Assembly (NCBI RefSeq): GCF_000004825.1
Contig: NW_008805073.1
Coordinates: 682,001-746,000 of the forward strand
Direction: 5' to 3'
Source of the DNA: Heterostelium album PN500
Lineage: Eukaryota > Evosea > Eumycetozoa > Acytosteliales > Acytosteliaceae
DNA: 64,000 bases
In this document: in pieces, positions 48,468 through 60,364 of the stretch
How the letters are laid out: every line of letters starts with the position of its first letter
How positions within the stretch are numbered: the stretch's first letter is position 1
Notes under the pieces: model-generated
Told to the model about the DNA's origin: nothing
What the model saw: only the letters and a program-made list of their open reading frames with translations
Databases searched by the model: none
Translations under genes and position numbers: made by a program

Positions 48468-51376
48468 ATGAAGTTAATATTTTTGGTGATGCTCTTCTTG
48501 TCTGTTGTAAGATGCCAGCAATATCAAGGAAGGGTTCTTGTTCTGAGAGGAATGTGTTTCAATGACACCAACGTAAATAGTGTGAACAATGGAGAGTATG
48601 GAGTGGGTGGTGTCTATGCCGTGCCATTGGATAACGCTGTTGACTACCAAGGAAATAGATTACAAAGTATGTACACTCAATCAAATGGTGCTTTCTTCTG
48701 GGATGGTTTAATGGAGAGAACTCTCTATCGATTCAATCTCACCAATCCTGCCGACTATCTCTTTGGATCTTATGATATCTCATTGACTTGTCCACAAGGA
48801 AAGGTGTGCGTCAGAGACTCCAATCCCAACGAAGGATACAGAGGAACAACTGTCATTGAGAATCTCACTGCTTTTCAAGTTCCTATGTTGTACCGAAAAG
48901 GAGTGGCAGCCGCTGTGAGTACACTTTGTTTGAAGATCAATGTTGATCTCGGTCCAATTTCAACCCCGCCACCTGCACACAAAGGAACCGCTGTTGTTGG
49001 AAACATGTTTGTCGATTACTCTGGTAGTGGACTGAAAGAGGCCAATGAAAACTGGTATGTAGGTCTTACCCTTGCACTTTTAGATCGAAATGGTAATCCT
49101 GTGACCGATGCCAACGGAAATCCAGTACCCTACTCCACAACTGATGCAAATGGTCGTTTTGTTTTTGAAAACATTCGTGAAGGATTCTATACACTTAAGA
49201 TCATCAGTGGAATCAACGGAGTCTATAATCCAGGTACCATCGGTCCTTTCGTTGTTTCCGCTTCTACTTTTTCTACTGCCAATGATCATGTCAATTCACC
49301 GACAATCAGCAATCTTGGAAACTATGGATTGACGCCAATCGGTACTTCCACTTGCTCTGGAATGATATATATCGATCTCGATTTCGATGGTTATTTCGAT
49401 GCCACTGATAAGCCAGCTGTTGGAATCAAAGTCAATATTTATTCACCAATCTATGGATATCTTGTATGGAATACCACAACTGGATCCGATGGAAGATGGA
49501 GTTGTTCAGGATTGGTATCTAAAATTAAGTATCGTATTGAATTCGTTGGTCAGAATATTATCTCAACAGGACCAGATCCTTTTAACTTTATTAATGGAAG
49601 TGATAATATTCAAGTCGGTGTTTCTCAACAAATCTTAAATCAAGGTAATCAAAATTCCAATAATCCATCTGCTTTTGCCACAACATGTTTCGTCAAAGGA
49701 AGTAGAGCTGGCGCCTATAAGAATGATCCAGCAGTTGTCAGATTCTCAGCCAATGCAACTGGATTCGCCTTCAAAGGAGACGGAATGAAATATGCACAGA
49801 AGATGGCATACCACAATCAAGTTGGTTCATGTTTTGGAATTACCTATCGACCTGAAACCGAAGATACTTATGTATCTGCTTTCTACAAAGGAAGTAGTGA
49901 TTTTGGACCATCTGGAATGGCTGCCATCTACAAGATTACCAAAGGATTCCAAGTTTCAACTTTTATTGACCTCACCAAGTTTGGAATTAACCCAGGAACC
50001 ACAACACACTATTTCAGCGATGAGCTGAAAGAAGGACAAGAAGCAGGACGTTCCACTTGTAAAGTATCACTCGGTGATCTTAAGAGTACCAATAGATATC
50101 TTTATGTTACCAACTTGTATTCAAACGAAGTTGTTCAAATTCCAATCACTGAAACGCCTACCACCTCGAATGTTCTAAAGAAAAGCGTTCCAAATCCTGG
50201 ATGTACTTATGCATCCGACTGGAGAGCATTCGCATTGGAAATTTACCAAGGTCAACTCTATGTTGCCGGTGTTTGCACTGGTGAAGCTGGTTCATCATTG
50301 ACTGGATATGTTGTGAGATTCAATGAGCAAACTCATGGGCAACAGTATTGGAATTCCCATTGAATTACAACAGAGGTTGTAAGAGATATGACCATTGTCC
50401 ACAATCACAATGGCACAAATGGGGAGGTGACTACACCATGGCCCAACCTCAAATTGCATCACTCTACTTTGACGATGCCGGTCGATTAATCATGGGATTC
50501 AAAGATAGATCCAATGATATCGCCAATGGAAATTGGATTTCCACTCCAGACATGGTAGTTGCTTGTCAAACTCCATCTGGAACTTTCCAACTGGAGTCAA
50601 ATGCAGTTTGTGGAGGAAAGACTGGTACACTTCCCAATGCCAAATCCAACGCTGGAAAATCTATGGGTATTGGTGGTGGTATTTATTTCCAAGTGAATCA
50701 AGGCGCTGGTGGACACGATTACAATGTTGCCTATGGTTTGGCAAGAGGTGGTCCAAACCAAGTGGTCGCAACCGGAATGGACAATAGTTTCTGGTTCGAG
50801 GGTGCAGTCAGATGGTTTGATACCACCACTGGTAAATATATTCGTGCCTACTCTATTTACAATGCAACTGCTTCGCGTGGTACATTCAGCAAGTCGAATG
50901 GTCTTGGATCGATCACATCGATATTCCCACCATCTCTTGAAGTATTTGATTGTGGAAGAGTCTGGAATGACATCAATGGAAATGGAATTCAAGATTGTAA
51001 TGAACCAGGAATCTCAAATATTAAAATCTATCTGTTCTCTCAAGACAATCCAACCTGCCCAATCTCCTATTTATATTCAGACAAAGATGGAAGATATTGC
51101 TTCTCAGTTCTTCCAGGCAAACAATACTCTTGTTCTATCAACATCAAAGAAACTCAAGACAAGTTTGGAAAATTCAATGTCTCTCCAATTCTCAACGATC
51201 CAAGATATGAAGGAATTGACAGTGATGGTGTCATTTTAGGTGGAAATATTGTATCAAATTTCCAAGCATCATTATATTGTGGATATTCATTCCTACACTG
51301 TCATTTCGGAATTTACAATCCTGACAACTGTCCCAAAGATGGTTTTACAACATATGGTTGGGGTGCAAAAAATTAA
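48468..51376 (+). CDS. Secreted SdrD/colossin-like repeat protein (one frame slip)
   Basis: A signal peptide (MKLIFLVMLFLSVVRCQ) starts at 48468. The product is about 969 aa once a frame slip is allowed. Three prealbumin-like SdrD/Cna-B modules are visible, with the motifs NMFVDYSGSGLKEANENW, MIYIDLDFDGYFDATDKP and RVWNDINGNGIQDCNEPG, each followed by GVKVNIY- or YLYSDKDGRY-type strands. The middle third looks propeller-like (YVSAFYKGSSDFGPSGMAAI, YLYVTNLYSNEVVQIPI, QLYVAGVCTGEAGSS). Such modules are common in bacterial surface adhesins and in dictyostelid colossins, suggesting extracellular or matrix adhesion. The frame changes near 50337-50339, a GGG run. A fourth G would give THGATVLEFPLN and one continuous protein, so a missing base in assembly is the simplest reading. 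The stop is at 51374-51376. Confidence 0.88.
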
Positions 51377-51842
51377 TTAAAATCATAAATACATCAAATA
51401 TTAAATAAAATCAAAACAAAAAATAAAAATAAACTTGGAATTTTTAGTTACCTTTTCATTCATTTATCATTTTAATTTTAGCCTCGAAATAGTCATCGTT
51501 TGATGATTGTGATAATATCAATATATAATAATATAGAATTATCATTCTATATATAATAATAATATTATAGTGATACAAAATGATATAGATTTTTAAGAAA
51601 GTTTTGATTCTGCAGAGTTACTTATAAAATAAGTTAAACGATGTTCCAATTGTATTCAATGTTTCATTCTTGAGTAATGCTCCCAATTCAAAAGCAATCC
51701 ATTCCTAAAAGGGTGTCGGAGAACCCCACTCTTCCTTGGTTCAGCTTTTTGCTATGAAAAGTATCTTTTTTCTCTTTTAAACAAATAAATTAAATAAATA
51801 TAAAAAAGAAAAAAATAACCAATCGATATGATAAAATAAATA
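51377..51842. other. Flank between the SdrD-like gene and the inverted-repeat island
   Basis: No gene. A palindromic stretch at about 51520-51560 (ATATAGAATTATCATTCTATAT core) and a segment at 51658-51700 that recurs at 57265-57301 are the notable contents. Confidence 0.55.
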
Positions 51843-52425
51843 ACTTTGTTTTATTTTCAGATATAAATAAATATTTAGAATCAAAAGAATCGATTCTCAA
51901 AACAAAAACTGAAATTTTTATTTGGAGATCCAGTAGTGTGATGGCAGAGTGATAATAATTTATTAGGCAACTGGAATAACAGAGGCAACCTGCATAACGA
52001 CGAGAGGAAGCCGGAATAGCAACGAGAGGAAACCGGCATAGCAACGAGAGGCAACCGGCATAACGATGAGGGGAAACCAGCTTAGCAACGAGAGGCAACC
52101 GGCATGGTAACGAGGACTTGGAAAAGAAGAGATAGATAAAAAGAGATAAAACATACAGTTAGTAAACAAAGATATAAATAAGAAAGTTATAATTATTTAT
52201 TATTCCTTACAAAATTATTTGTATTTGAAAAATAATGAAAAATGATATTGTGAATGAAATTATAGGTTTAAATAGTTTTAAATTTGATTCGTTGACTTAC
52301 AGTTTGAGCTCAAAAATGGGAGCAACCGTTAAACGCCAATTAAAAGAATGAATTAATATTCAAATTTGATATATATAAATATTAAAATTAATTAAATAAT
52401 TCATTTTATTATAATATAATTTCAA
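51843..52425 (+). repeat. Left inverted arm of the island
   Basis: Reverse complement of the right arm. The match is strongest from 52110 to 52412, where words such as AATCAAATTTAAAACTATTT are shared exactly with 58813-58832 on the opposite strand. It contains the 22-base minisatellite at 51975-52115. Confidence 0.8.
51975..52115. repeat. 22-base minisatellite in the left arm
   Basis: About six to seven units with consensus AACCGGCATAGCAACGAGAG (plus two bases). Units vary at two to four positions. GC content is far above the surroundings. Confidence 0.85.
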
Positions 52426-52504
52426 AAATAAAAAAAACAGGCTATGATTGCCAATGAAGAAACAACAAGCATAATTTTCAATTTTATTAATTTATTTAAT
52501 ATTC

Positions 52505-52565
52505 AACACCTATTGTCCGTCTAAGGACAATAGGGTAGCCAGGAAGGCAATGCTAGTGCCTATCA
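52505..52565 (+). ncRNA. Possible structured RNA: two adjacent hairpins
   Basis: CCTATTGTCC (52509-52518) pairs perfectly with GGACAATAGG (52525-52534) around a six-base GTCTAA loop. A second small stem, AGGCA (52545-52549) with TGCCT (52557-52561), follows. The segment is GC-richer than its surroundings, has no ORF, and lies upstream of the ORF at 52940. No known RNA family recognised. Confidence 0.3.
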
Positions 52566-52939
52566 AATAATATCAATAATATACACCAGCCAACATATAA
52601 CAACAGTAATAGTAATATTCAATTATAATAAATTAAATTAATTAAATCAACTAAATAAATACTTATGTAGTTTAAAATCCAAATAATAATTAAATTAAAT
52701 CTGTTTTTTCTAAATTAAGTTATTCAATACTCAGCAGTCAAGCTTCTCAATGACCAATACATTGAGTTTAACGCGAAGTAAAAGAATTCATTGAGATGAT
52801 TCAATTTAATTAATTTATCGAATCAATTCAAGATAGAGGAAGATATTAAATTTATTAAAATTAATAGATAAGAAAAGATATTAAATAAAATTTAAAAAGA
52901 TTATTTTATACTATTATTGATTATTAATTAAATAAGAAA

Positions 52940-53311
52940 ATGACAGATCCTACTGATCAACCAAATGAAACAACCACAATGAGTGATCTCGATAGTAGCA
53001 ATAATAATAATGAAAGTCAATCAGCTACTACTCTATTCCCAGAGGTCGCTCCTGTTAATGTTCGCCAAGATCCGCTTCCAAATTATCTCTTTCAGGCTAG
53101 CCTAGCGTCGTCCAAGCTCCCTATCTCCTCTACCATCGTTCCAGGTCAATCGGATGGAAAACAACACCCCACTTTTATTGGCAATTTCATTTTTTTTTTT
53201 GCTGGTGCTTCAAAAAACCAAATTTTGTTTTTGAAAGATATTTTCAATAATAAAGATACAATAAGTAATAAATCAATAGATATTAATCATTTGAAATCAA
53301 ATAATAGTTGA
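52940..53311 (+). CDS. Unrecognised 123-aa ORF inside the island
   Basis: It starts with ATG in good context (AAAATGACAG) and opens MTDPTDQPNETTTMSDLDSS. There is an Asn/Ser-rich head and then an ordered segment with VAPVNVRQDPLPNYLFQAS and VPGQSDGKQHPTFIGNF. The coding character fades near 53190, where an oligo-T run interrupts a Phe stretch, and the rest is AT-rich and Asn-rich. It may be the 5' end of a longer element or host gene that has been lost. I do not recognise a family. Confidence 0.4.
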   Translation: MTDPTDQPNETTTMSDLDSSNNNNESQSATTLFPEVAPVNVRQDPLPNYLFQASLASSKLPISSTIVPGQSDGKQHPTFIGNFIFFFAGASKNQILFLKDIFNNKDTISNKSIDINHLKSNNS

Positions 53312-54134
53312 ACTTTTAGATCAAAATTTAATAGTATTAAATTAAAGATATATTAATATTTCATTTATTAAGATAGTAATCATATTTATTTTGAATTAAA
53401 TATAATAAAATCAGTGTTAGATCTATCAATTATTGAAGTTAATGATTGATTATGATGTTTGATCAAAAAAAAAACAAAACATAAAGAAAATAAATATTTA
53501 TAAATTTAATTTTAAAAATTTTTTATTGGATGACATGTGAATTAATTTTATTTTCAAAGGGGATAGAGATGTTGAGTAAATGATATACTTAATATTTTTT
53601 ATTTTTTATTCTATTAATTAACAGTACTAAAAATGTAAATGTATTCAAAGATTAAGATGGAAATATAATAAAATGGTATTATTAATAAATAATACTAATA
53701 ATTTTTTTAAATCAATACTACCTTTTACAACATTTAATATATATATTTGTTTAAAATTAATTTGATTGGATAATTGAAATTTTAATATAATATCTCCAAC
53801 TATTTGTAAGATATGTTAAAGTAATTATTTATAACTAAAAAGATATTAACCCTTAATTTTCAGAAAAACTATCTAATTACCCTACCCCTACCTCATACAA
53901 TACAGTAGTAGAAAAAATGTCAAGAAAAAAATGAATGAGGGAAATGAAAGAAATTCACATCAACTAATTATTCATTTTCAATAACAATCTTATTAATTAA
54001 TTAATTTTGATTTATAAAATATAATTTTTTATTTATGTGTTTGTTGGTGGAATATACTATAAATAACTTTATTCCTACTTCCTTTGTATTAGACAATAAA
54101 AACCTTATTCATTCATATTAATTAATTATTAAAA
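53312..54134. other. AT-rich spacer inside the island
   Basis: No ORF, repeat or RNA signal of note. The last 90 bases before 54135 look like a short promoter and leader, with TATAAATAACTTTATTCC at about 54058-54075 and an A-rich approach to the ATG. Confidence 0.5.
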
Positions 54135-54486
54135 ATGAAAGTTTTAACTTTAACTCTAATTATGTTAGCCTCTTTGTTATTCTTTGCAAGCATTGTATTG
54201 GCAAATCAAAGTATGTATTATTTATTTATAATGCTCAAACAAAATGAATAAAGACCAATTATTTATTAATAAACTAATAAAATTGTGTAATAACAGACGA
54301 TATGTGTGATGTTAAATCTGAAGAAGAATGTGTAAATTATGATGAATGTATTTTGATAACTCCAGGAACTGGTTCAGTGTGTGTATCAAAAGAACATCTA
54401 GGTACATCAAATGATATTTCTACTTATCAATACTAAAAAAGTTATTCAAATTTTACTTTATTTCAGCTTTAAATAAAGATAAATAA
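54135..54486 (+). CDS. Small secreted four-cysteine peptide
   Basis: Three short exons (54135-54210, 54297-54401, 54467-54486) total 201 bases and encode 66 aa. A clear signal peptide (MKVLTLTLIMLASLLFF...VLANQ) is followed by an acidic mature part with four cysteines: DMCDVKSEEECVNYDEC and SVCVSKEHLALNKDK. All introns have GT...AG borders and the phases agree, ending at TAA 54484-54486. The gene looks whole although it lies between transposon fragments in the inverted-repeat island. No homologue comes to mind. Dictyostelids have many small secreted cysteine peptides of unknown role. A TATA-like element sits about 75 bases upstream. Confidence 0.65.
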
Positions 54487-54732
54487 TATAATTTATTATA
54501 TACTCATTTTTAAACTTAAATGTTGTAAAGTACAAAAGATATATAAATATTATAATTCATTCTTTATTCTTTATTTAACTTTAATACATTATCACAGTGA
54601 GACAACATATGACATATCCATTGAAATTAATTTTACTTATTAAAACCTAATTAAGTATAAGATTAATAAATCGAAAAATCTATATTTGTTAAAAACACTA
54701 AAAACATAAAAATCACACCACCACAGGCTACA

Positions 54733-54916
54733 TATCTCTACCATACCCCCCTGTCCACAATATACTTTAGACACTGTATCACAATATATTAGATTTATGT
54801 ATTTTCCAATTTTATTCCTATTTTGGATAGATGCTGTAGCACAATGAAATATACACCATTATCTAGATATACAGTGTCTAAAGTATATTGTGGACAAGGG
54901 GGGTATGGTAGAGATA
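54733..54916. mobile_element. 184-bp foldback MITE
   Basis: Arms at 54733-54779 and 54869-54916 are inverted copies with one single-base length difference; the inner core word is ACAATATACTTTAGACACTG. The 89-base centre is AT-rich and noncoding. Near-identity of the arms suggests it is young or still maintained. No clear target duplication is seen. Confidence 0.85.
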
Positions 54917-55084
54917 GAAAGTTAAAGTTTGATATCAAATGTTTACCAATCAATTTAATTATTGTATCTTCTTAAATAGAACACAAATATCAATCGAATG
55001 ATATATTAAATTTATTAGATGGTTCGAAAAAAAAATATTCATCCAGTTGTTCAACTTGTATGACATATAATATTTAAACTTATT

Positions 55085-55410
55085 TATTAAATAGGATTAC
55101 TATCTCTTTGATCGTGCCACCATTTTAAGCTATCTATAATATTTTGATTATTGTAATATATAGAAGTAGAATGTGTATAGGAATAGAATGCAGTAGTATC
55201 CTTTATATCTAGCGATTGAAGTATCTTCTTGGCATCATCTGGGATATTATCACTTAACATATTACCTTCATTGAGTTCTATCTCAGCCTGTAGGAAGGAA
55301 TTAGCTTTTACATATTGTGAAGTGAATTCATATTAATTATCTGGTTTACTGTGGAATAAGGGACTATAAACGTAATTTGGAATCAGTAAATCTTTAGTAT
55401 CTACCAATTC
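55085..55410 (-). mobile_element. hAT transposase fragment, C-terminal end
   Basis: On the minus strand this reads IPNYVYSPLFHSKPDN, then QAEIELNEGNMLSDNIPDDA and finally SLKWWHDQRDS. The double Trp with following charged residues is the hAT C-terminal dimerisation signature. One in-frame stop follows the KPDN motif. It overlaps in content (about 80 bases) with the plus-strand hAT fragment at 55690-56590, which lies in opposite orientation. Confidence 0.75.
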
Positions 55411-55689
55411 ATTCATTATTTTTCTATTATTATTACTAGTACTATTAATAATTTATCTACTATATCACATACTATCTATTATCCTATATATTATTACTAA
55501 TTATTACAATTATTGCCTACCGGTATCTGCGAGTTCGTTTAAAATTTTAGTTTTTTTTTAGAAATAAATGAAATAAATTGAATAATAACGTGTTATACAG
55601 ATATATAAATATGTTTATTTGTTTATATATTGTTTAAATATATTAAGAAGGATACCATATTTCATGATTTGGTATTAAAAATCTATTAT

Positions 55690-56590
55690 GAATCCGGTAA
55701 CAATGGTATATTTAAATTGGTGTTTTCTTAAAGAATCATCATTTGAAATTTTATATCGACGAACAACACGAATGACCGAGCTAAAGGAACGGTCAAAGTT
55801 ATACTCAACATCCATTGGCACTATTGTTGAATTTAAACTCTCAATATCTTTATTGGAGGTTACATCGAACAGGGTTAATCTACTCTGATATCGGTTGTTG
55901 GCATCTGATCATGTACCTGATGTTGAGAATATATATGATCTATTTAGTTGTAATGTTGATAGAGATGATAGTGAGGTTGTTGGTGAGGATGATAGTGATG
56001 GAGGAATATGAATATTACGATGATGTCTTAAGACTTCTATCTTTCTTTCGTAAGAGTTCAAATGCGATCACTCTGGCAAAGAATATTAAGTCAGACGCAG
56101 CTTCTGAAAATCAATCTACCAAATTTAAGACTGCATGTGTGACTAGATGGGGTAGTACTTTGGCAGCACTTAAATCATTTAGATCGAAATATGGATCTGG
56201 GATAAATACCCTGGATGAACTAATCACACAATCAAAGAGAGACAAGATTCAATATTAGAGTTCAAGAAAAGAGTGTCAACTGGTGAACAATTAATGCTAT
56301 TAGACGATATTATACTAGTATTGGAGAAATTCAATCATGTTATTACGTTATTGTCTGCCGAGAAACAACCAACTCTAGCATCTGTATTTAATATCTCAAC
56401 TGAAAATCGATCTTCAAAATCCAACCGGCATTAAAACTAAAATTGGTGTAGATCTCTCTCTAGACCTTTTATCCAATCTTAAAGAACGATCAGATAAATT
56501 TGTAGATAATAAAGATGTACTGATTCCAAATTACGTTTATAGTCCCTTATTCCACAGTAAACCAGATAATTCATATGAATTGTTAAAAGT
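55690..56590 (+). mobile_element. hAT transposase fragment, central part
   Basis: Scattered frames give ASDHVPDVENIYDLFS, then LRLLSFFRKSSNAITLAKNI, the hAT motif FKTACVTRWGSTLAALKSF (equivalent to the TRWNST motif) and LVLEKFNHVITLLSAEKQPT. It ends with IPNYVYSPLFHSKPDN, shared with the opposed piece at 55325-55410. Frame changes and stops show it is dead. The N-terminal BED finger is not evident. Confidence 0.75.
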
Positions 56591-56871
56591 CAATTAAAGC
56601 TAGTTGGGCCGTTCTCTATTGAAGTATTCAACCACTAATACTCGAGTAAAAACTCAAATATGTTTTCAACCCACCACACAATTTATATGACAAAAAATAT
56701 TTGACTTTTTGCAAAAAAAAAGTAAAATATTTGAGTATTCGAATTAATATTCCAGTATTCATACATTTAATATATTTATTTTATGAGAATTCATGTATAT
56801 TTGTTAGTGAAAATGCAAAATATTAGAGTATTAGACTTAAATATTATAGTATTCAAAATATACAAATTTAT
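56591..56871. other. Short AT-rich spacer with recurring ATATTC/GTATTC words
   Basis: No gene. The words AGTATTC, GAGTATTC and GAATTAATATTCC recur irregularly (56613, 56731, 56745-56757, 56847) and may be the decayed end of the neighbouring transposon. Confidence 0.4.
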
Positions 56872-57262
56872 TTAGAACGAATTTGATGTATATCTGTTGG
56901 TGAGCAAGGCTGCAATCATCCAAACCTTATGATGTTTGTTTGTGCTATCGATTTTAGATGACAATAAGGGAAAACAAACGGAGGTAGCTTTGTATTTTCT
57001 CATTCTTCCAATTGAGTTTTCTACTATAATTCGTACTTGCTTTATCCTGTTGTCAAATGCCTTAAGTTGTTCTTCTGAGAGATCAGCAGGTTCACTTCCT
57101 TCACAAAAAGGAACAAGAGAATTTGGGTAGTAGGCTTTCATTCCTTTGAATCCTTTTTCTCCAAGAAGGCATTCATCTTCAGGATAAAAGTTATTCTCTA
57201 ACCATATCTTATCATCGTACAACAAGTTAATATCAGCAATACTACCATAGTTACTTCACAGT
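56872..57262 (-). mobile_element. PIF/Harbinger-type transposase C-terminal fragment
   Basis: An open frame reads NYGSIADINLLYDDKIW, then LLGEKGFKGMKAYYP, NRIKQVRIIVENSIGRMRKY and WMIAALLTNRY. This is the end of the DDE_Tnp_4 domain: the D of SIADINLL, the 'LLGDKGY' strand and the VEnsIGR helix carrying the last acidic residue. The 5' portion of the transposase is missing. The remaining 117-codon frame has no internal stop, so the piece is less decayed than the hAT remnants. Confidence 0.8.
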
Positions 57263-57830
57263 TTAATGTTTCATTCTTGAGTAATGATCCAAAAGCAATC
57301 CGAGAGTTGTTGAGATTTTAAAAAAAAAAAGGTTTAAAATGGTTTCAATATGTTCAATTTAGTTGAATATTAACAAAATCGAGAAAACATTTTTTTTTTT
57401 GCGATTTTCATTGACAGAACAAATTGTAAATATTGCAAATAGGGACTGTTCTTTATTTGTTAATTTTAATATTTTTTAGTAGGGAATAAATTATTCTATA
57501 ATATTTACTTTTGGGAATTAATTGAAATAAGTTTTATGATAAAAAAATTAAATTTTATGTTATAAATCGAGCTCGGAACTAGAAATATATTGGTTTTTAA
57601 GAATTTGGGATAACTTGGACGGTCAGAATATAAACAAGATTGGTGAAACTCCCATTCTTTTAGAGTTTAATTTGACTTGAAAGTCAAAATGTGGTCAAGT
57701 TTAATTTCTACTTTTAAGTAATTTTTAAACACACTCAAAGAACTAGCACAACAAACAAATTTATTTATTAATAATTTTGAGTCTTTTAAATTTTATTTAT
57801 TTTTGTAAAAAATTAAAACATCATCAATAT
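57263..57830. other. AT-rich spacer in the island
   Basis: No ORF. It begins with a segment (57265-57301) shared with 51658-51700, just outside the left arm. Oligo-T and oligo-A runs near 57320-57330 and 57391-57401. Confidence 0.5.
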
Positions 57831-58315
57831 TGATGGATGAGGACAATAATGCCCAAGAAGGGGAAACTGATGATGAAAATGAAATTCAACAACATTTGCT
57901 GGAAAATACTTTGGATGATCGAGGTAAATAAAATATAGTATATTAGTTTTTCCTATCATGTTTCTAAAAGTAAAACTCAAGATTTTGAGGAAAATTATGA
58001 ATAGTATAATAGAATGAAGGTCGAAGATTTGAAAGAAATTTGTAAATCCAATTCGTGGAACCAAAATCAAACTAAACCAAATTTAATTGATGAAATTTTA
58101 AGTTGTGGAGAAAAAAGAGAACATGGTTGGACAGATTTAAATTTTTCCTCTGAAAAAAATCACTGAACCTAATATTAGTGGTAATTGCACTAAAATCTGG
58201 AGACATCAACTCCATATGAAATCTTTACAATATTCTTTGATCGGAATATAATTACACATATAACAGCAGAAACCAACAGATACATGAATCAAATGTTAAA
58301 AATCATTTAAAACCC
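57831..58315 (+). mobile_element. piggyBac-like transposase 5' fragment with a SAP-like motif
   Basis: The ATG at 57831 opens MDEDNNAQEGETDDENEIQQ, a typical acidic start. After a break comes MKVEDLKEICKSNSWNQ and KPNLIDEILSCGEKREHGW, a SAP-like DNA-binding helix pair. Another frame then gives ETSTPYEIFTIFFDRNIITH and ITAETNRYMNQM, the piggyBac 'P-x-x-x-F-x-x-F-F ... TNxY' signature at the start of DDE_Tnp_1_7. The catalytic part is absent. At least two frame breaks are present. Confidence 0.6.
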
Positions 58316-58694
58316 CAAACCTGCAATCAGCATACCCCCCACACATGACATTTTCATTCAATTCCAATAAATCGTGAATCAAATCAATTAAATTGTGATT
58401 CACTTTTAAATAAACAAACAAAAAAATATATTTAGATTTTATTTTGGAAATATATTTTTTTATCTCAACATAAAAGTATATTATTTAAATATTGTATTCA
58501 ATGAATAAAACAAGTAGATATTTAAAATTAAAACAAAGTAATTTTTACTAAAAACTTTCGATTTTTTATTTATAATCAATTTATTTGTTAAAAGTATAAA
58601 AAGATAATTTATTTAATTCTTAGTTTAAAACATTAAATAAAAAAAAAACTAGAAAATATTCAAAATAAAAGTGTACACTTTTATATGTTATTAT
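58316..58694. other. AT-rich spacer in the island
   Basis: Long A and T runs and no ORF, repeat or RNA signal that I can support. Confidence 0.5.
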
Positions 58695-59300
58695 AATAAA
58701 AGAATTATTTAATTAATTTTAATATTTATATTTCAAATTTGAATATTAATTCATACTTTTAATTGGTGCTTAACTGTTGCCGACATTTTTGAGTTCAAAC
58801 TGTAAGTTAACGAATCAAATTTAAAACTATTTAAACCTATAATTTCATTCACAAAGTCATTTTTTCATTATTTTTCAAATAAAAATAATTTTGATTTGTA
58901 AGTAATAATAAATAATTAAAACTTAAACTTATTTATATCTTTGTTTACTAACTCTTTGTTTTATCTCTTTTTATCTATCTCTTCTAATCTCTCTTTCCTA
59001 CCACCTCGATCGTCCCCCAACCTCTGTCGGTACATTCCTGTATTTGCCTACCACCACTGAAATTGCCTACAAACTCTGTCGTTGCCTACCATCTCTGTTC
59101 GTCTATCCAATATCTGTCATTGTCTATAACCTCTGTCCGTCCATCCAATGTCTGTCATTGCCCACAATCTCTGTCATTGCCCACAATCTCTGTCATTGCC
59201 CACAATCTCTGTCATTGCCTACCACCTCTGTCATTGCTCACAACCTCTGTCCGTCGATTTTGAGTCTAAATATTTATTTATTTAATTTTAATCTGAAAAA
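58695..59300 (-). repeat. Right inverted arm of the island
   Basis: Counterpart of the left arm: 58695-58985 aligns closely with 52412-52110 reversed, and 59255-59300 with about 51885-51843 reversed. Between them sits the 19-base minisatellite. Confidence 0.8.
59005..59255. repeat. 19-base minisatellite in the right arm
   Basis: Units of CTCTGTCATTGCCCACAAT, perfect in three central copies and degenerate toward both ends (CTCTGTCCGTCCATCCAATG variants). The core CTCTG-TTGCC resembles the left-arm unit read in reverse, CTCTCGTTGCTATGCC. Confidence 0.85.
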
Positions 59301-59349
59301 TTATTAAAATGACTGATAGAAGTGATCTATGAGATGATGCCAATGCAAG

Positions 59350-60364
59350 TCGGTAAGGGTGCCAACGGAAAGAATTCAAACTAGGATGCTCTGTATGGCT
59401 CGACTATTCTGTAATTTTACCCAATGGAACTGTTATTCAAGATCCATCATATGTCTTCGATATCAATGTAGACTTGGCATGCGCTGCAAGCACAGGACCA
59501 ACTCCTACTCCTGCGCCTACTACTCCAGCTCTAACTACACTACAACCACTCCAACACCATCTAATCCATATAGTACAACAGTTATTCATTCTTTAAAATC
59601 CACGAAAATTAAAATTGGATCTACTTCATTCAGCCTAATAACACTGCTTCCTCTACTTGTGGCCAAGTTAACTTAATATATCCACAGGATCAGGAAATTT
59701 TACAATTAATTAGATACTTTTAGTTATATAGTTCTATAGATATATTTATATATAGTTATGTATTATGTGTATATAAACAATTATCGTGTATTTATATCAT
59801 TTTTTCTAACTTTTAAATTTCTATTAATAATATTTGGTGGTCAACAAGAGTGTACTTGGATATGTGTTCCTAATGGTAAACCAAGCAACAAAATTTAGTT
59901 TATCTTTTTTCTTTTTAAAGTCCAAAGTCCAGAATTCTCTCATCTACTTAATTATCCTACTAGTCAAGATACCTATAAGACTCTTTATATTATATTATTA
60001 TAATATACACCTATATGATTCTTTATTATATTATGATACTATTATAATTATACTTATATACATCAAGGTTAACTTTGTAAGTTTTATTTTTAATTGATAT
60101 ACGAACTGATTTTGTTATTTTTTTTTATTTCATAGGACAACAAATAACAACAGACTCTGCTCCAGTTTCGGATCTACATTCCTTCCAAGATTTAATTCGA
60201 CTGCCGCTGGTGCTTCAAATAATTCAGGAAGTAAGTTGATAAAAAACAAAAAAATATTATCAGAACAATTTTTAAATTAACTTTTTCTTTTTTTCAACAT
60301 AGAACTTCAATATTCTCATATAGGTCTAGCCTTTTTAACTTTTATAGTTGAAATTGTCCATTAG
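59350..60364 (+). pseudogene. Remains of a secreted, possibly GPI-anchored protein gene
   Basis: Disconnected coding pieces lie in one direction. 59380-59560 gives KLGCSVWLDYSVILPNGTVI and DPSYVFDINVDLACAAS, then a Thr/Pro run (GPTPTPAPTTPALTT). 59836-59883 gives GGQQECTWICVPNG. An apparently clean final intron (60231-60302) joins 60136-60230 to 60303-60364, giving FLPRFNSTAAGASNNSGK and then a hydrophobic end, IGLAFLTFIVEIVH. The Ser/Asn/Ala/Gly stretch before a short hydrophobic tail is the pattern of a GPI-anchor signal, common in dictyostelid surface proteins. No start codon and signal peptide remain in frame. A decayed surface-protein gene is the best reading; a spliced gene with undetected exons is possible. 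Confidence 0.4.

Follow-up and report, generated by a model that had tools for sequence, protein, structure and literature searches.

The locus described here raises the question of whether two inverted arms that enclose a collection of repeats in Heterostelium album PN500 belong to a mobile element or to a local inversion-duplication. The window, that is, the whole stretch of 64,000 nucleotides that was analysed, corresponds to C12:682001-746000 in a genome of 32.9 Mb and 39 contigs (labelled C with a number), and the arms lie within its positions 51,843 to 59,300. Copies were named by contig (e.g., C7a, C7b, and C12b) and the window copy is referred to as W. When the arm alone was searched genome-wide, as the original prediction had proposed, a dispersed family was found, with 20 arm cores and 8 paired loci. 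We state with high confidence that the arms form a genuine dispersed family, and the dispersed arm cores rule out a local inversion-duplication. The explanation that we prefer, to which we give about an even chance, is that the family is a low-copy selfish mobile element with foldback-like arms.

Arm family and organization of the element

Searched against the genome, the arm query matched 133 times, and 20 of these matches were long arm cores, as counted on the fetched loci. The family occupied about ten places; 30 candidates were scored in this search, so that copy counts are a lower bound and weaker copies may escape. Inverted arm pairs were found at eight loci (the window, C7a, C7b, C9, C10, C11, C12b, and C28) with an outer span of 7.1 to 9.5 kb, the two C7 copies being about 73 kb apart and C12b lying at 1.36-1.37 Mb on C12. 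C3 and C25 carried a single arm core each, and another copy is truncated where contig C17 ends. The first 352 bases of C4 (L032:1-352) match the C17 tail (L027:4046-4397) with 99.7% identity in reverse orientation, which would point to a palindromic centre or to a break in the assembly. In addition, degraded family fragments were detected away from the main copies (C3:1422692-1425058, C11:649509-649937, C14:546392-546690, and C27:1447630-1447878).

A fuller copy, about 8-11 kb in length, consists in this order of a satellite, an arm, a protein gene, a structured RNA with a predicted 3' ribozyme similar to that of hepatitis delta virus (HDV), a tandem-repeat zone, an arm, and a satellite. The better copies share the tandem-repeat zone, the RNA-like block, and one protein frame; the window has neither the protein gene nor the RNA block.

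The protein gene

The protein frame of the family is Gln/Asn-rich, with 258-421 codons from stop to stop, and six of the ten non-window loci (C7a, C7b, C10, C11, C25, and C28) have it open from its Met. It is damaged in C3 (start lost), C9 (frame shifted), and C17/C4 (cut), and it is gone from the window and from the main C12b copy, pieces of it being present in a partial neighbour of the latter. The protein comprises two copies of a unit of about 58 residues (40-47% mutual identity) and a long Gln/Asn tail. The gene is under purifying selection: the ratio of nonsynonymous to synonymous divergence (dN/dS) was 0.18-0.56 in the 18 pairs, out of 21, whose dS was at least 0.04, and 0.67-1.13 in the remaining three, which have too few changes. 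Synonymous divergence reached 0.53. With respect to its identity, no Pfam family scored above cut-off (weak matches to Utp14 and Presenilin below the cut-offs were set aside), and searches revealed no relative at E<=1 among PDB sequences and no phage match. AlphaFold gave no confident model of the N-terminal part (mean predicted local distance difference test, pLDDT, of 54).

The structured RNA and its predicted ribozyme

The RNA block, of about 740 nt, shares its strand with the protein gene, downstream of which it lies; it was found in eight copies, and C25 and the window lack it. That it is near-invariant among copies can be stated with high confidence, the divergence being 0.4-1.6% over 735-736 columns in all 21 pairs of seven copies, with an eighth copy (C12b) sharing 97.9% of 904 bases with C7a, whereas synonymous sites of the protein gene diverge by up to 0.53. 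Identity in 100-nt windows was 97.9-99.7%, and the block is the longest near-invariant stretch of the element. Its fold had a z-score of -4.99, with none of 20 shuffles as good. The only long frame of the block, of 131 codons, was rejected as a protein (no Pfam match at E<=1; variable columns spread evenly, 5/4/6, over codon positions), and a hammerhead and a telomerase template, considered by eye as readings of the RNA, were dropped.

At the end of the block lies a predicted self-cleaving ribozyme of the HDV-like kind, an assignment that we consider probable from the sequence. The predicted P1 is GGUGCCA/UGGCACC, P2 is UAGACUC/GAGUCUA, and J4/2 is GCUGAGA; P3 (ACC/GGU) would close a 7-nt L3 (UCCACGU), the two G after P1 can pair with L3 (P1.1), and P4 would have 17 pairs and an A/U-rich loop. 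The HDV-like features P1, P2, P3, P1.1, P4, and the cytosine in J4/2 are all present by sequence. The 38-nt core, J4/2, and the P2 strand were identical in 8/8 copies, and the 17 pairs of P4 were complete in six, with one pair lost each in C3 and C12b (16/17); a C-to-U change in P4 of C9 keeps the pairing as G-U. A strict descriptor of the ribozyme matched seven of the eight blocks, the P4 of C3 making it miss that copy. It had no other match in the 14 sequences (the window and 13 loci; 365,830 bases, both strands counted), and found no site in 1,097,490 and about 480,000 shuffled bases in which local base composition alone was kept; it was written after the site had been inspected, and counts as support but not as an independent test. 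This origin tells against the assignment, as do the scores of Rfam RF02682 (HDV-F-prausnitzii), which were 27.9-28.2 bits in the three loci scanned versus a gathering score of 44, and the modelled J1/2 of a single nucleotide, unfavourable in light of an excerpt from PMC4908430 in which a related ribozyme with a one-nucleotide J1/2 had little activity. For P4, J4/2, and P2, the Rfam placement was given up in favour of a downstream P2 partner and the 17-bp P4.

The HDV-like ribozymes of the R2 and L1Tc/ingi retrotransposons, as presented in parts of PMC3774820, PMC4035085, and PMC4908430, likewise have a nested double pseudoknot (predicted here), cleave before P1, and reside in a repeated element. 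Unlike them, the ribozyme predicted here lies downstream of a protein gene, and the element has no reverse transcriptase (RT).

The position of the block as the longest near-invariant stretch would also suit a multi-copy host locus, in which the structured RNA would be the product of a host non-coding RNA gene whose copies gene conversion keeps alike, and the arms would be a by-product of duplication. We consider this unlikely, given that the RNA was found in copies of the element and in one 86% fragment (C11:649509-649817), apart from small short matches elsewhere, that it is missing from C25, and that wherever it occurs a protein gene is present with it or can be seen to have been lost.

Probable arm recombination and nature of the element

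Arms of different elements were 1.3-6.2% apart (median 3.4%, 142 pairs). Within elements, where arms are mostly closer to each other, they were identical in C9 and differed by 0-0.27% in C12b, 0.8% in C7b, 1.8% in C7a and C10, and 2.1% in C11. No other arms of the family are as diverged as those of the window, with 6.2% between the two and 4.5-8.9% from the remaining arms, which bears out the old age that had been attributed to them. The tree of arm cores supports the W, C9, and C10 pairs, and the orientation of the interior with respect to flank type differs, by reading, between C7a and C10. The arm and flank data are the pattern of arms that recombine mutually and with other loci. In the C9 copy (L018/L019), host-like flank beyond both ends is repeated, inverted, over about 100 bases as judged by eye.

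If the family is a selfish mobile element, transcription would run through the protein gene and then the RNA block, the ribozyme would cut just before GGUGCC so that the RNA has a defined end, and the protein might act jointly with the RNA to help the element to persist. The long arms would fold back and recombine, which would invert the interior, keep the arms homogenised, and exchange host flanks, and W, having lost its interior, would have become a landing place for other repeats. We infer that the elements spread by copying or recombination, without an encoded transposase. A self-cleaving RNA would then be tied to the upkeep of a eukaryotic repeated element with no recognisable transposase; we know of no precedent for such an RNA in the upkeep of a DNA element, one literature search gave no match, and none of the papers listed by another mentions dictyostelids.

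The family has long inverted repeats that consist of tandem repeats, as expected of foldback elements. In excerpts from PMC3688188, PMC3573991, PMC4168063, and PMC4079207, the Foldback, Galileo, and Tetris transposons resemble it in having very long inverted repeats that contain tandem repeats, and in ectopic recombination and inversions. The family differs from them in its variable outer ends and its conserved ribozyme-like RNA, and in that neither a transposase nor a target duplication was seen.

Several observations weigh against a mobile element. Pfam recognised no transposase in the C28 interior, where the scan covered unspliced stop-to-stop frames of 60 codons or more other than the low-complexity ones inside the Gln-rich region; the earlier statement that the interior holds no transposase obviously matched to the arms is borne out. 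The sole match above cut-off among those frames was a host proteasome fragment. Inspection of the ends revealed no target duplication and no constant terminus, several end types being present and none seen at the window copy. The foldback-like shape of the original prediction holds up. The flanks outside the satellites are of at least five types in mixed combinations (by reading), and the two arms of C28 are 4.2% apart (4.9-6.6% when a third arm is included), which exceeds the between-element median. C12b and C28 have about 3 kb of host flank in common, including a NuBaID/ZC3HC1-like gene (PF07967, E 7.3e-18) that is broken up in C28; this looks like segmental exchange and not like clean transposition. 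In regard to the RNA, the stretches 7800-7601 (upstream of the gene) and 6300-6201 (gene end) of C7a also reach 97.7-98.2% in 100-nt windows. In addition, C7a and C11 differ by 0.4% in the RNA block with a dS of 0.46; RNA and protein gene disagree on the closest copies, and therefore gene conversion may explain part of the sameness of the RNA. The proteasome-subunit gene fragment in the C28 copy is located at L025:6201-6497 (PF00227, E 1.1e-15).

The exchange of flanks between loci would also fit if the copies were centromeres, i.e., inverted-arm units at about one per chromosome, homogenised between chromosomes, with W a former or decayed one, a possibility that we hold to be improbable. The nine main arm clusters are spread over as many contigs or pairs of contigs, and some 18 contig ends are subtelomeric (the starts of C2, C7, C8, C15, C16, C19, C27, C35, C37, and C38 and the ends of C2, C3, C5, C9, C29, C30, C33, and C36), which would correspond to about nine chromosomes. 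However, this count merges the two C7 copies and omits the window copy, which is the second on C12, as well as fragments on C3, C7, C10, C11, C14, C17, and C27; with contigs below 150 kb excluded, a spread over different contigs is expected by chance with P = 0.11 for nine clusters and 0.06 for ten. Subtelomeric repeats are also internal in C8 and C32. Fission yeast and some Candida species likewise have homogenised inverted arms, at their inverted-repeat centromeres, from which the family differs in its selected protein gene, unusual for a centromere, and in having no copy on C2, a contig with subtelomeric repeats at both ends.

According to an excerpt from PMC5006619, the P. pallidum assembly is without DIRS-1, and most species may organise their centromeres deviantly; DIRS-1 of D. 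discoideum, a dictyostelid element with inverted repeats, is linked there with centromeres. In contrast to DIRS-1, no RT or tyrosine recombinase frame was seen in C7a and C28, and the sole RT found is that of a Ty3/gypsy-type element nested in C12b. This element (L022:5639-9351) has RT, RNase H, and integrase domains and 168-bp end repeats that are 100% identical, with a run of N within. A fuller version, in which the units are dictyostelid centromeres whose self-cleaving, near-invariant RNA and protein gene aid maintenance, a selfish element having turned into a segregation site, appears slightly less probable still. The copies are, so far, weak candidates for the centromeres of those dictyostelids that lack DIRS clusters. 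The telomere repeat TAAGGG was observed at the ends of C3 and C30 and the starts of C19, C37, and C38, where it adjoins GC-rich subtelomeric satellites of about 23 bp with GGCAACC, as in the arm satellite; a kinship of the two satellites was not claimed, the common GGCAACC being too short.

Lastly, the two inverted repeats, the interior orientation that varies among loci, and the homogenised arms would fit an integrated circular nuclear plasmid with two flipping inverted repeats, but this is very doubtful, with no Rep-like gene in the frames examined, flank types that are partly host gene sequence, and copies that sit in chromosomal contigs. Dictyostelium nuclear plasmids resemble the family in their long inverted repeats and possible inversion isomers, and other dictyostelid plasmids have two inverted repeats that flip.

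The window copy

Both inverted arms were present where the original prediction had placed them, each with its own minisatellite. The left arm core (52125-52510, plus strand) and the right one (58689-58985, minus strand) match in inverted orientation with 84% identity at 52211-52380/58722-58891 and 97% at 52125-52182/58928-58985. The left minisatellite, of 22 bp, lies at 51981-52114 (plus) and the right one, of 19 bp, at 59018-59259 (minus), the repeat search placing the latter array at 59044-59251. The outer ends, 51863-51886 (plus) and 59258-59281 (minus), are inverted matches of each other (96%). Outside the left arm, a 37-bp piece (51655-51691) has 86% identity to 57262-57298, beside the PIF/Harbinger fragment.

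We are highly confident that W is a dead copy whose interior was mostly lost and filled by other repeats. The family-derived interior is limited to 53162-53410 (plus; adjoining the arm, 74% to C7a 2022-2287), 58324-58677 (minus; 89% to copy C10), and a 61-base match at 52692-52752. Several nested pieces are repeats that recur elsewhere in the genome, and the earlier picture of an island gathering transposons is apt as a description, the repeats being passengers. A later dispersed repeat (52513-53166, plus) occurs in at least 28 other places (40 of 96 candidates scored), and another (54420-54693, plus) in 12 other places.

Among the three transposon families that had been named, PIF/Harbinger was substantiated by a transposase fragment at 56872-57252 (minus; Pfam DDE_Tnp_4, E 3.9e-11), found in two other places, with its part 56883-57115 matching C3 and C5. 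The segment read as hAT (55325-56581, plus) has 88-nt inverted ends (94%) and no Pfam support: its frame 55785-56255 (plus) gave no family at E<=1 and the adjoining frames only weak unrelated matches, and no second full copy was found in the genome. The piggyBac assignment was not upheld, 58005-58163 being a SAP-domain fragment (Pfam, E 1.7e-5) within a repeat (57299-58304, plus) with copies on C5 (89%) and C8 (71%, part).

The proposed miniature inverted-repeat transposable element (MITE) stands as a palindrome at 54746-54902, to which no strand was assigned and whose middle piece is part of a dispersed repeat. On the minus strand, 54743-54906 scored 38.2 bits (E 5e-5) with Rfam MIR1120, a family that we take to be MITE-derived, which stays under the cut-off of 86. 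The arms of the palindrome had a single other genomic match (C10:2202519-2202556). No further Rfam match at E<=1 was found in 51300-59900, and a tRNA scan of the window gave none. As for the small secreted-peptide gene, reading of the sequence revealed a possible two-exon, secretory-type frame at about 54135-54436 on the plus strand.

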